Assembly: GCF_000716595.1 (NCBI RefSeq)
Contig: NZ_JNXC01000007.1
Location: 1 to 64,000 of the forward strand
Direction: 5' to 3'
DNA from: Saccharothrix sp. NRRL B-16314
GTDB lineage: Bacteria; Actinomycetota; Actinomycetes; Mycobacteriales; Pseudonocardiaceae
DNA: 64,000 nt
The position numbers and the translations under genes were made by a program. This document shows, piece by piece, positions 22,539 through 58,278 of this stretch. The notes beneath the pieces were generated by a model. That model had not been told where the DNA came from. It made no database searches and saw only the letters and a program-made list of their open reading frames with translations. The number at the start of each line of letters is the position of its first letter. The stretch's first letter is position 1.

Positions 22539-23957
22539 TCACGGCGTTGGAGCGGGAGCCGGCGGCGGTGTGGTCGTTGTGGTCGGCGCCGGTGGTGGGG
22601 TGGTGGTCGGAGCGGGAGTGGTGGGGGTTGGAGTGGTGGTCGAGGGCTTGGGCTTGGGCTTGACCAGGATCACGGCGTCGCCTGCTGCCACCTTGACCGT
22701 GGCCGGCGCCGCGCCGCCTCCGTCGAAGTTCACCAACCCCGCCGGTGGCACCACCGAGGCCGATTGCCCGGTCGGGTTCACCGCCACGTAGCCACCGGTG
22801 AACCGCCGGTCCCACACGCCGGACGGCAACCGGTTCGCGGTCTCGGTCGCCTTGCCCAGCGCCGACTCCTGGTACCGCGACCAGTCGGGGTTGCGGTAGT
22901 CCCTGGTCGTCGCACCGGACCAGCACGTGAACGGGCTCGCCAGCAGCGCCGCGGTGGCGTACCCGACGCGTTGCTCCCGCTCGCCCTTCGTGTGCGTGAT
23001 CAGCAGCAGCCACGACTCGCCGAGCGCGGCCTGTGACCGCAGTTCCTTCCACTCGTTGCCCTTGAAGGTGAGAAGTTCACCCGTACCGGTGTCGCGGAGG
23101 CCGAAGTTCTCCTCCATCGCGCCGTCGTACCGCGAGTGCGCCGCCCACCGACCGGCGGTGAGGTGCGATTCGGACACGTTCGGGATGAGCATCTTCCCGG
23201 CCTGGTGCAGGGAGTCACCCGCGGTGGTGAGGAACCCGTCCATGCCGTCACGGATGATCCGGTCCGACTCGGCCGCGTCCGCCGTGCCCTTGAGCACCGC
23301 CGAGGAGTAGTGCTTCAACGTGCTGAAGTCGTTGTCCGCCAGCACGCCGTCCCACCCCTCGCGCACGACCTCGGCGGTGACCGCGTCGCTCCACGCCTTC
23401 TGGTAGGCCGGGTCCCACACCGTCATCTGCCAGTGCTTCGGGTAGCTCTTCCACTCGATGCGCGAGCCCGACTTGTCCAGCGCGAACCAGTTCGGGTTCT
23501 CCCGCTGCGCCTTGAAGTAGCCGATACCGGTGGGCAGCAGCGGCGCGTCCTTGTCGCCGTTCACCGCGCCCGGGTAGTTGCGCGCGCTGGCGAAGTCCTT
23601 GTAGACCAGCACCTTGACCTTCGGGTTGAGCTGCTTGAGCTGCCGCAGCGCGGCCGTCTCGGTCGCGTTGAGCACCACCAGGCTGTAGTGCTTCGCGGCG
23701 AACGCGATGTCCTTCTCGGTCGGTGGCTCGCCGATGCCGTACCACCAGCCGCACGGAGCCAGCGGCTTCGGCAGCGGGCCGAGCGGGTCGACGGGCGGCA
23801 CGAACCTGACCGCGGACGCGTCCACGGCGGTGCACGCCGCGTTCGGCAGCAGCAGCACAGCGGCGCACAGCAGACCCAGCGCCCGGCCGAAACCACGGCC
23901 ACGGCCACCAAGTCCACGACCACTGCCCGGTCGTCGGTTCAACGATTCCTTCGGCAC
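22539..23957 (-). CDS. Secreted putative glycoside hydrolase (GHL15-like) with Thr/Pro-rich tail
   Basis: This 472-residue protein starts at a GTG inside the sugar-transferase gene and carries a basic N-terminus, a hydrophobic segment and a weak lipobox (LPNAAC, Cys about 42). It is probably an exported lipoprotein. The body has TIM-barrel features of the hypothetical glycosyl hydrolase 15 group: CGWWYGIGEPP, KVKVLVYKDFAS, NWFALDKSGSRIEW, MTVWDPAYQKAWSDAV, WDGVLADNDFS and a late barrel strand with AMEENFGL. A stalk of Thr-Pro repeats ends the chain. The stop TGA lies within a GTGAGTTCGACG repeat. It probably trims the exopolysaccharide outside the cell; the activity is unproven. Confidence 0.8.
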   Translation of the reverse strand: MPKESLNRRPGSGRGLGGRGRGFGRALGLLCAAVLLLPNAACTAVDASAVRFVPPVDPLGPLPKPLAPCGWWYGIGEPPTEKDIAFAAKHYSLVVLNATETAALRQLKQLNPKVKVLVYKDFASARNYPGAVNGDKDAPLLPTGIGYFKAQRENPNWFALDKSGSRIEWKSYPKHWQMTVWDPAYQKAWSDAVTAEVVREGWDGVLADNDFSTLKHYSSAVLKGTADAAESDRIIRDGMDGFLTTAGDSLHQAGKMLIPNVSESHLTAGRWAAHSRYDGAMEENFGLRDTGTGELLTFKGNEWKELRSQAALGESWLLLITHTKGEREQRVGYATAALLASPFTCWSGATTRDYRNPDWSRYQESALGKATETANRLPSGVWDRRFTGGYVAVNPTGQSASVVPPAGLVNFDGGGAAPATVKVAAGDAVILVKPKPKPSTTTPTPTTPAPTTTPPPAPTTTTTPPPAPAPTP

Positions 23958-53819: not shown

Positions 53820-54152
53820 ATGGAGTTGCAGGTGCGCAGTGAGGTGCGGGGCGACTGGACGGTTGTCGCGGTGTCGGGAGAACTCGACGCGGACACCGTC
53901 CCCGTGCTGTCCGACCGCCTCGAAGCGAGCACGGGCGCCCGGATGGTGGTGGACCTGAGCGGCGTGCCGTTCATGGACACCACCGGTCTCTCCCTGATGC
54001 TCGACTGGCACCGGCGCCTGGACGGCGTGGACGGCGAGTTCAGAATGGCGTGCCTGCAACCGGCGGTGCACAAGCTGTTCCGGCTGACCGAGTTGACCGA
54101 GGTCATGCACATCCACGCGACTGTCGAGTCGGCCACCGCGACCGCTTCGTGA
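53820..54152 (+). CDS. STAS-domain anti-sigma factor antagonist
   Basis: This 110-residue single-domain protein has the beta-alpha STAS pattern VVAVSGELDADTVPVLSDRLEAS and the switch segment VDLSGVPFMDTTGLSLML. In typical antagonists the phospho-acceptor is Ser or Thr in DSSGL; here it is Thr in DTTGL. It would be phosphorylated by a GHKL kinase and dephosphorylated by a SpoIIE-type phosphatase, both present in this module. Its stop overlaps the start of the APH-like gene, a sign of translational coupling. Confidence 0.9.
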   Translation: MELQVRSEVRGDWTVVAVSGELDADTVPVLSDRLEASTGARMVVDLSGVPFMDTTGLSLMLDWHRRLDGVDGEFRMACLQPAVHKLFRLTELTEVMHIHATVESATATAS

Positions 54153-55021
54153 TCCCGGAGAGCTTCCGGAACGCGCCGCTACCCCGTGACCGGGCTTGGT
54201 TGGCCGCGCTCCCGGCGGCGATCGAGGAGCGCTTGGCGGTGTGGGACCTGCGCTTGGACGGCCCCGTGACGCACGGTTCGCACGCGTTGGTGATTCCTGT
54301 CACACAAAGCGGCACGCCGTTGGTGCTGCGGATGAACGCGCCCAGCGAGGACGTCGCGGCGCACGTCGAGGCGTTGCGGTTCTGGCGGGGGCGGGGAACG
54401 GTGCTCCTGGTGGACGCCGAGCCGTCGGCCGGCGCGATGCTGCTCGAACGCCTCGACATGCGCCGCAGTGCGCTGGATCTGCCGTCGGACGAGGCGATGG
54501 CGGTGCTGGGCGTGATGGCTCGGCGACTTGCTGTGCCCGCCCCCGCGACCGTGCGGTCGACTGCCGACCTGGCGCGGGTGCGGTCGGCCGGGTTGGAGGC
54601 GGAGTGGGAACGGCAGGGGAGACCGTTCGACGTGGCGTTCCTGCGGGAGGGCGAGAAGGCCGCCGGCGCACTGGTTCGCACGTCGTCACACCTCGCGGTG
54701 AACGGCGATTCGCACTCGGCGCAGGTGCTGGCGGGCGGCCGTGAACCGTGGCTCACCGTCGACCCGATCCTGCTGCGCGGCGACATCGCTTACGACTTCG
54801 CCCGCGTGCTGTGGACCAGGCTCGACGACATGCCCGACCGTGCCGCGATCCTCGACCACCTGACCGTCCTGGCGGACGCGGCGTCCCTGGACCGCGACCA
54901 CGTCCGCGACTCGGTCGTCTTCCGCGCCGTCGACTACTGGCTGTGGGGCCTGGCGGCCGGCCTCACCGAGGACCCGCTGCGCTGCCACCGCCTCACCACC
55001 GCCCTAACCCACCCCGCGTGA
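54149..55021 (+). CDS. Streptomycin 6-kinase/APH(6)-like phosphotransferase with divergent active site
   Basis: This 290-residue protein matches the aminoglycoside 6-phosphotransferase family: start MIPESFRNAPLPRDRAWLAALPAAIEERLAVWDLRLDGP, LVLRMNAPSEDVAAHVEALRFWRGRGTVLLVD, and the C-lobe LTVDPILLRGDIAYDFARVLW. The catalytic loop is NGDSHSAQVL instead of HGDLHPGN. The catalytic Asp is kept, but His becomes Asn and the magnesium-binding Asn is replaced, so activity on drugs is uncertain. It starts at GTG 54149 inside the STAS stop. Its stop TGA (55019-55021) is part of a repeat unit. Confidence 0.82.
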   Translation: MIPESFRNAPLPRDRAWLAALPAAIEERLAVWDLRLDGPVTHGSHALVIPVTQSGTPLVLRMNAPSEDVAAHVEALRFWRGRGTVLLVDAEPSAGAMLLERLDMRRSALDLPSDEAMAVLGVMARRLAVPAPATVRSTADLARVRSAGLEAEWERQGRPFDVAFLREGEKAAGALVRTSSHLAVNGDSHSAQVLAGGREPWLTVDPILLRGDIAYDFARVLWTRLDDMPDRAAILDHLTVLADAASLDRDHVRDSVVFRAVDYWLWGLAAGLTEDPLRCHRLTTALTHPA

Positions 55022-55218
55022 GTCCTACGTTCACGTCCCGTGAGTCCTACGTTCAGAACCCCCGTGTCCTACGTTCGGAACCCCCGAGTTCAACGCTCAG
55101 AACGGGCGAGGTTCTGCTGCGCTCACCGGCAGCCTTGTTCTGAGCGTTGAACTCGGGGTACGCGAACGTAGGACTCACGCGTTCTGAACGTAGGACTCAC
55201 GCGTTCTGAACGTAGGAC

Positions 55219-55222
<4 letters not shown>
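55018..55222. repeat. Inverted array of 22-base GTGAGTCCTACGTTC units between convergent genes
   Basis: Four units run forward at 55018, 55040, 55064 (shortened) and 55086 (variant GAGTTCAACGCTC). Four run in reverse at 55142 (same variant), 55164, 55186 and 55208. Most spacings are exactly 22 bases. The two halves can pair into a large hairpin with a loop of about 40 bases. The first and last units supply the TGA stop codons of the flanking genes. Termination in both directions is the likely role. Confidence 0.85.

Positions 55223-58278
<3,056 letters not shown>

Follow-up and report, generated by a model that had tools for sequence, protein, structure and literature searches.

Two converging genes of Saccharothrix sp. 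NRRL B-16314, one encoding an APH-like protein and the other a hybrid histidine kinase, end inside the same array of 22-bp repeats, which raises the question of what such an array is and what it does at the end of a gene. The original prediction, made on the 64,000-nucleotide stretch that we call here the window, described four forward and four reverse units forming a giant hairpin and supplying the stop codons of both genes.

A 22-bp inverted array closes two converging genes

Unit TGAs do close both genes, at 55019-55021 for the APH-like ORF and at 55221-55219 for the kinase ORF, and the inverted arms with 22-bp spacing are real on both sides (Table 1), but the fourth unit of each arm is of a distinct type, B (CGAGTTCAACGCTCAGAAC), and not a copy of the 15-mer GTGAGTCCTACGTTC. 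Genes were called here by a custom script and not by an annotation pipeline. In the window the 15-mer has 6 matches with up to 3 mismatches, versus 1.52 expected, and none of 100 shuffles reached 6. The two arms (55017-55103 and 55137-55223) are 86% complementary and lie 33 nt apart. The RNA of 55010-55230 has a predicted fold of -155.3 kcal/mol (z -15.65), and this strength is that expected for an inverted repeat of such size. Rfam gave 0 matches at gathering score across the 64-kb window, and a known RNA family was discarded on this result.

A diverged copy of the motif had also been proposed to supply a stop near 22539. A minus-strand ORF (22539-23957) does end there in GTGAGTTCGACG, but its relation to the motif is weak: the best unit-matrix score is 1.7 bits, versus working thresholds of 6-9, and the site has no 22-bp array.

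Table 1. Features of the array at 55018-55222 and of the two genes that end in it
Feature	Position	Strand	Remark
APH-like ORF (Pfam APH_6_hur)	54149..55021	+	stop codon is the first unit's TGA, 55019-55021
C-rich, G-poor entry flank of the left arm	54980..55017	+	38 nt with 24 C and 5 G (by-eye count)
A unit 1, exact core	55018..55037	+	
A unit 2, exact core	55040..55059	+	
A unit 3, variant CCGTGTCCTACGTTC, 3 mismatches	55062..55081	+	
B unit, terminal unit of the left arm	55084..55103	+	
Centre, 33 bp, between the inverted arms	55104..55136	.	
B unit, terminal unit of the right arm	55137..55156	-	
A unit, exact core	55159..55178	-	15-mer match starts at 55164
A unit, exact core	55181..55200	-	15-mer match starts at 55186
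A unit, exact core	55203..55222	-	15-mer match starts at 55208; holds the kinase TGA, 55221-55219
Hybrid histidine kinase ORF, HAMP-rich, 1019 aa	58278-55219	-	HAMP, GAF, HisKA, HATPase, response regulator

The repeat is genome-wide and its arms are polar

The NRRL B-16314 draft genome (8.93 Mb, 273 contigs) contains 390 exact copies of the 15-mer, and 464 copies with at most one mismatch versus 0 in the reversed control. The repeat is therefore not confined to this single locus, the outcome that had been named as refuting the prediction. We scanned 1.263 Mb of this genome (positions 1-240000 of contig C1, 1-360000 of contig C2, the entire contig C3 and the window), slices of five other genomes (G261, which is a sister, G215, G021, G172 and G088) and 80 loci of named species. 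Note that loci L141-L220 were picked, among the matches listed (at least 100 stretches), for holding arrays, and counts on them describe arrays and not density. Tests made across species carry no correction for kinship. In NRRL B-16314 the density looks uneven: allowing 3 mismatches at most, we counted 10 matches over 240 kb of C1, 63 over 360 kb of C2 and 42 over 200 kb of C3.

The unit matrix, which was trained on the same data that it scored, detected 887 units in the scanned sequence set versus 7 in the reversed control. The 22-nt pitch is exact in 646 of 652 same-strand neighbours lying up to 70 nt apart, in several species and with diverged units. Arms are polar: A units follow one another, and the distinct B unit, marked by a T at position 7 (GAGTTCAACGCTC), comes last; among 220 distinct arms of at least two units, B closes 204 and opens 1. 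The arms are arranged as 49 'B-in' pairs (A..B centre B'..A'), 23 'A-in' pairs (B'..A' A..B), 68 single arms and 1 same-orientation pair, with 6 further arms at a locus edge.

The centres of the 49 B-in pairs fall into classes of 9-12 (29), 20-21 (9), 30-33 (7), 43-44 (3) and 54 nt (1). When G261 was added (57 centres), the periodicity of the lengths peaked at 10.9 bp; 24 non-redundant centres gave R 0.83 at 11.0 bp (Rayleigh, best-fit period, uncorrected for the period scan), and the 14 longer non-redundant centres alone gave p about 9e-5 at a fixed period of 10.5 bp. Since two long centres (L202, L208) hold a decayed B unit, the long classes are somewhat over-counted. The A-in centre is 2 bp in 19 of the 23 pairs. 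By eye, the 43-44-nt centres (G215c, L185, L186) appear to contain an ordinary GC-rich hairpin, as if the array had formed around an older terminator.

Arrays are placed directly behind stop codons

In the scanned part of NRRL B-16314, 212 of 217 units are intergenic, and 37 of the 38 arrays of at least two units (1.26 Mb) are in gaps that contain a gene 3' end. These arrays occupy 18 convergent, 19 codirectional and 1 divergent gap, although divergent gaps make up 26% of the intergenic bases (binomial p 1.3e-4 for the deficit). The convergent preference that had been proposed is thus present (Fisher p 2.7e-5 versus divergent and 4.7e-4 versus codirectional gaps); codirectional versus divergent gaps alone gave p 0.059. 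Once the array is subtracted, the 18 convergent pairs retain a median of 3.5 nt (range -23 to 643), compared with a gap of 40 nt in 201 array-free pairs (p 0.021).

Arrays abut or overlap the stop codon. In the whole scanned set, a same-strand stop lies at -30 to +15 of the A-end in 116 of the 220 arms, and it is 2-9 nt before the array in 85 of these; it is inside a unit in 21, at a gap of -4 in 19 arms and of -26 in 2. At the B-end, stops inside a unit have gaps of -7 (19 arms), -13 (1) and -14 (4). The claim that the array provides the stop codon is thus correct for the two genes converging here but applies to a minority elsewhere, most stops being 2-9 nt upstream.

The stops themselves have a conserved context. 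For the 95 stops of the whole scanned set located 2-15 nt before an A-end, the preceding base is C in 90 (background 48%), CC follows in 91 (22%), and the codon is TAA in 48 (4.5%), TGA in 44 (74%) and TAG in 3 (21%), so that the usual A-end context is C-TRA-CC. The 25 stops facing a B-end at 0-15 nt have a weaker context (C before in 19, CC after in 12, no TAA). Orientation is biased and not fixed: the A-end only faces a stop in 109 arms, the B-end only in 45, both ends in 7 and neither in 59. Of the 109 arms whose A-end faces a stop, 83 have CTRAC no more than 16 nt from that end, but only 3 of the 59 arms that face no stop and 1 of the 45 that face one with the B-end do so. This led us to reject a MITE or small transposon with a CTRACCC terminal repeat, since A-ends without a facing stop lack the motif.

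Unit TGAs as probable fallback stop codons

Comparison with relatives suggested how a gene can come to end within a unit. In the sister G261 the kinase ends with GAC TAA, followed by CCCGC and then the first unit, while in NRRL B-16314 the matching codon is CAA and the frame continues for two codons up to the unit TGA. Across 25 kinase ends most use the same end codon as G261, and G292, G127 and G296 are among the few that differ slightly. At this locus an array abuts the stop in 6 of the 25 genomes, G224 has a degenerate 22-bp series, and 18 have none. The APH-like ORF ends with ALT-HPA* in NRRL B-16314 and with ALT* in G088 and G159. The APH-like gene was not seen in G261 (L112), where a STAS gene and a short stretch precede the retained left arm.

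At four other sites of C3 (405246, 496068, 513837 and 528530) the NRRL B-16314 gene also ends within a unit and G261 has a CTRA stop before the array; small length differences separate the two genomes at these sites, and no outgroup proved which way the change went at these four. These comparisons suggest that an array becomes the stop when the upstream stop is lost, and we favour the view that the unit TGA is a fallback, used once the gene's own stop has gone. Because 22 is a multiple of three plus one, three successive units carrying GTGAGT give a stop in each frame.

Entry flanks are C-rich, and ordinary hairpins are few

Towards the A-end the sequence becomes rich in C and poor in G, in a gradient of about 100 nt, and this gradient is alike for 116 arms with a stop nearby and for 46 arms where coding sequence is absent nearby. 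At the B-end the tendency is less marked (111 flanks, with a C-G skew of 0.22 over the last 10 nt). At the kinase locus, third-position G in the last 30 nt of the gene is 0.18 in the 6 array-bearing genomes versus 0.47 in the 18 array-free ones (total G difference p 0.0017, uncorrected for kinship), and yet three array-free genomes (G110, G206, G232) also have a low value. Judged from its composition, this entry resembles a Rho loading region. Since the gradient is also found at the 46 A-ends away from coding sequence, the C-richness may stem instead from a strand-biased mutation process. All 25 genomes of the genus encode a Rho RNA-binding domain, with two matches in 23 of them and one each in NRRL B-16314 and G268.

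Hairpin-like stems within 60 nt past the stop were found at 4 of 49 array ends, the array filling most of that interval, and at 39% of 150 sampled convergent and 20% of 150 sampled codirectional ends that are array-free.

A proposed transcription boundary

Unit order, spacing, phasing, placement, stop context, C-rich flanks and positional stability are direct observations. A strict pitch of two helical turns, a fixed terminal unit and phasing of the centres speak for a DNA-bound protein more than for RNA pairing, and the placement behind stops, the few ordinary hairpins and the C-rich flanks speak for a transcription boundary. Our leading reading, held tentatively, is that the arrays may be phased sets of binding sites for a sequence-specific DNA-binding protein and form a boundary to transcription at the 3' end of genes, perhaps with Rho; we infer the protein, the roadblocking and the role of Rho. 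With a pitch of 22 bp, or two helical turns, the protomers bound along an arm would all face the same side of the helix; the B unit would be a distinct terminal site, and inverted arms about 11, 21, 32, 43 or 54 bp apart would share a common helical phase. Behind the stop, the resulting nucleoprotein complex would set a limit to transcription, in the simplest case by blocking the path of RNA polymerase; Rho could load on the C-rich, G-poor RNA just upstream of the array and complete release, and the unit TGAs would serve after the loss of the gene's own stop.

No recurrent candidate for the binding protein was found among 18 proteins scanned, mostly array neighbours. These were diverse (APH, hybrid kinase, STAS, VTT, TetR, Ser/Thr kinase, CBS, AMP-ligase, NUDIX, integrase, Fur and others), and a link to the function of the neighbouring genes was dropped for this reason.

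A bolder form of this proposal, which we consider possible but doubtful, is a lineage-specific termination system in which a dedicated, predicted protein would form directional phased filaments behind stops, replacing hairpin terminators, with Rho as a second step. Such a system would probably reach hundreds of gene ends, given 38 arrays in 1.26 of 8.93 Mb.

Arrays look stable in place and variable in unit number

The arrays could instead be a neutral or selfish repeat, in which slippage multiplies the units, gene conversion homogenizes them and the arrays survive where they do least harm, behind stops. We compared C3 beyond 195 kb with the syntenic 400 kb of the sister G261 (flanks 85-97% identical). 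Of 13 NRRL B-16314 arrays, 11 could be mapped on G261 and all 11 have an array at the matching place; the reverse comparison also gave 11 of 11. Spread between convergent genes, as had been suggested, is therefore not seen at sister distance. The number of units is unequal at 8 of the 11 shared arrays, in agreement with a neutral repeat.

Other observations also fit a neutral repeat: centres of the AAGATCGACT type and of the GGCCGGCC type are common to different loci and species, one locus has unlike centres in two sister genomes, and the outermost units are less conserved than those beside B (0.854 versus 0.901, 126 arms). Against it, the array positions are stable between sisters, and the fixed pitch, terminal B, phased centres and C-TRA-CC context represent more order than tolerance predicts, which makes this explanation rather unlikely.

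Across species, 104 comparisons (reciprocal pairs counted twice, and S26 compared with itself included, as G215 slices versus L153 and L207) gave arrays in both members in 95 and not in 9, 2 of these 9 absences (C3 418271 of NRRL B-16314) being mapping artefacts. The array is clearly absent in the comparison of L185 with G215c, which involves about 160 bp beside a stop, and in that of L167 with G021, where two convergent stops overlap in G021; no target-site duplication was established. At sister distance, arrays look stable in place and variable in unit number.

RNA pairing between arms is not strongly supported

The inverted arms could also act in the transcript, by folding into a hairpin that serves as a bidirectional terminator or as a REP/BIME-like protector of the mRNA 3' end. 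The location behind stops would suit this role, as would the very stable fold predicted at 55010-55230 and the excess of inverted pairs (72, versus 1 same-orientation pair). The giant hairpin of the original prediction is thus predicted at this locus but is not general, since inverted pairs can fold as a hairpin and the 68 single arms cannot. A T-run directly after the hairpin, as in an intrinsic terminator, did not appear to be required.

Moreover, the two arms of a pair do not covary in the NRRL B-16314 B-in set (18 pairs, likeness 0.848 versus 0.852 shuffled, 654 of 1000 shuffles as high) or in the A-in set of all species (23 pairs, 0.756 versus 0.766, 862 of 1000). The B-in pairs pooled over species gave the opposite result (49 pairs, 0.823 versus 0.799, reached by 0 of 1000 shuffles); a species effect could account for the difference. 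Unit numbers of paired arms correlate with r 0.63 for A-in and r 0.20 for B-in pairs (all species). Pairing of the arms is not strongly supported, and there is no reason for an RNA loop to grow in 11-nt steps. A hairpin as the main trait was demoted by the single arms and the own-genome covariation test, the pooled B-in test pointing the other way, and we regard it as unlikely.

The double-unit pattern was found in genomes of one family

The double-unit pattern GTYSWACGYTC-N11-GTYSWACGYTC, which is narrow and would let more diverged arrays escape, occurs in 20 of the 390 Pseudonocardiaceae genomes, and the control gave 0 matches in every genome listed. Of the positives, 14 are Saccharothrix (out of 25 genomes, NRRL B-16314 included), each with 26 to 393 matches, and the remaining six, with 2 to 119 matches, come from five further genera. 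In an order-wide draw of 397 genomes 4 were positive, all within the 79 Pseudonocardiaceae, versus 0 of 318 in other families. In the other genera the spelling of the unit differs and the 22-bp pitch is kept, and several arrays again come after CTAACC at a stop. One such genome (G242; L242, L249, L255, L258, L261) combines different units in its arrays, GCGAGTTGCGCGTTC and GCGAGTTGAACGTTC among them, and one of its arrays sits between a NUDIX gene and an integrase-family gene.

Some BIMEs have been reported as sites for gyrase or nucleoid proteins between converging genes. That the arrays bind such proteins and absorb supercoils there would agree with the convergent preference, the helical phasing and the dispersal through the genome, but it is improbable, as 19 of the 38 NRRL B-16314 arrays lie between codirectional genes, neither the tight stop context nor the C-rich sequence at the array entry is explained, and 370 of the 390 family genomes, all presumably with gyrase, lack the double-unit pattern.

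Several Saccharothrix genomes also carry a second extragenic repeat of MITE-like look, with inverted ends GATTTGACATGGG ... CCCATGTCAAATC. It was seen at L114, L115 and L122 (the kinase locus of G172, G292 and G215), at G261d, and at L154, L157 and L180, and was absent from the 1.26 Mb scanned of NRRL B-16314.

Relation to known systems

Extragenic repeats at gene 3' ends are often explained as palindromes made by a transposase (REPs). Excerpts of one study describe REPs in many copies in gene 3' flanks, often between convergent ORFs and in inverted pairs, close to both ORF ends (less than 20 bp in two genomes), with CGTC REPs said to be without a dedicated transposase (PMC3733652). The original prediction saw in the stop-supplying repeat an unusual class of element; the same excerpts provide a precedent, the termini of GTAG REPs at gene 3' ends being reported to supply stop codons (PMC3733652). 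To the extent of these excerpts, the arrays resemble REPs and BIMEs in their 3'-end and convergent placement, inverted pairs and supply of stop codons. They differ in the unit, which is a palindrome of 20-40 bp in REPs and a direct repeat with 22-bp pitch and a terminal B here; the inverted symmetry lies between arms, 68 of which have no partner.

The RAYT-type (Y1_Tnp) domain PF01797 had no match in the NRRL B-16314 genome. It was matched in 5 of the 25 genomes of the genus, of which G261, G292 and G127 are array-positive. Note that PF01797 also covers IS200-type enzymes. A RAYT-driven REP was demoted, since the domain is absent from NRRL B-16314 and from 11 of the 14 array-positive Saccharothrix genomes.

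Plasmid iterons are direct repeats of about two helical turns that align a binding protein on one face. Iterons are located at one origin, whereas the Saccharothrix arrays are behind many genes, and no replication initiator was found among the 18 proteins scanned, mostly array neighbours. TTF-I at the Sal box and Tus-Ter are tandem or oriented protein sites that halt a polymerase or a fork, the same mode as proposed for the arrays; they differ in that the array protein is only predicted and the array orientation only biased.

Streptomyces BldC binds head to tail on direct repeats whose number varies (PMC5859096, in part). This offers an actinobacterial protein on direct repeats of variable number, although the BldC repeats, as described there, are AT-rich (AATT core), of shorter pitch and at promoters. 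Neisserial DNA uptake sequences are also short genome-wide motifs, often present as close inverted repeats that act as terminators, as excerpts of PMC2397512 describe; unlike the arrays, they have no tandem organization and no phasing. A family on the start-codon side is given by the TAACTGA repeats of Beggiatoaceae (PMC4679880, in part).

Neither the 15-mer GTGAGTCCTACGTTC nor this array family was found in searches of the open-licence part of PubMed Central, which is weak evidence of absence. The arrays are 3'-end extragenic repeats, a known kind of element, with an architecture not found in the open-licence literature searched.

Our results thus describe an abundant 3'-end repeat family without a RAYT-type transposase in the three richest genomes counted (G288, NRRL B-16314 and G215), and a clear case of repeats serving as back-up stop codons. 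The sister genomes provide natural variants in unit number, centre class and lost stops that can be used for tests. Should a protein bound to the arrays prove to halt RNA polymerase, high-GC actinobacteria would have a protein-based means of ending transcription, and the lineage-specific system, if true, would be a bacterial counterpart of TTF-I/Sal-box roadblock termination.
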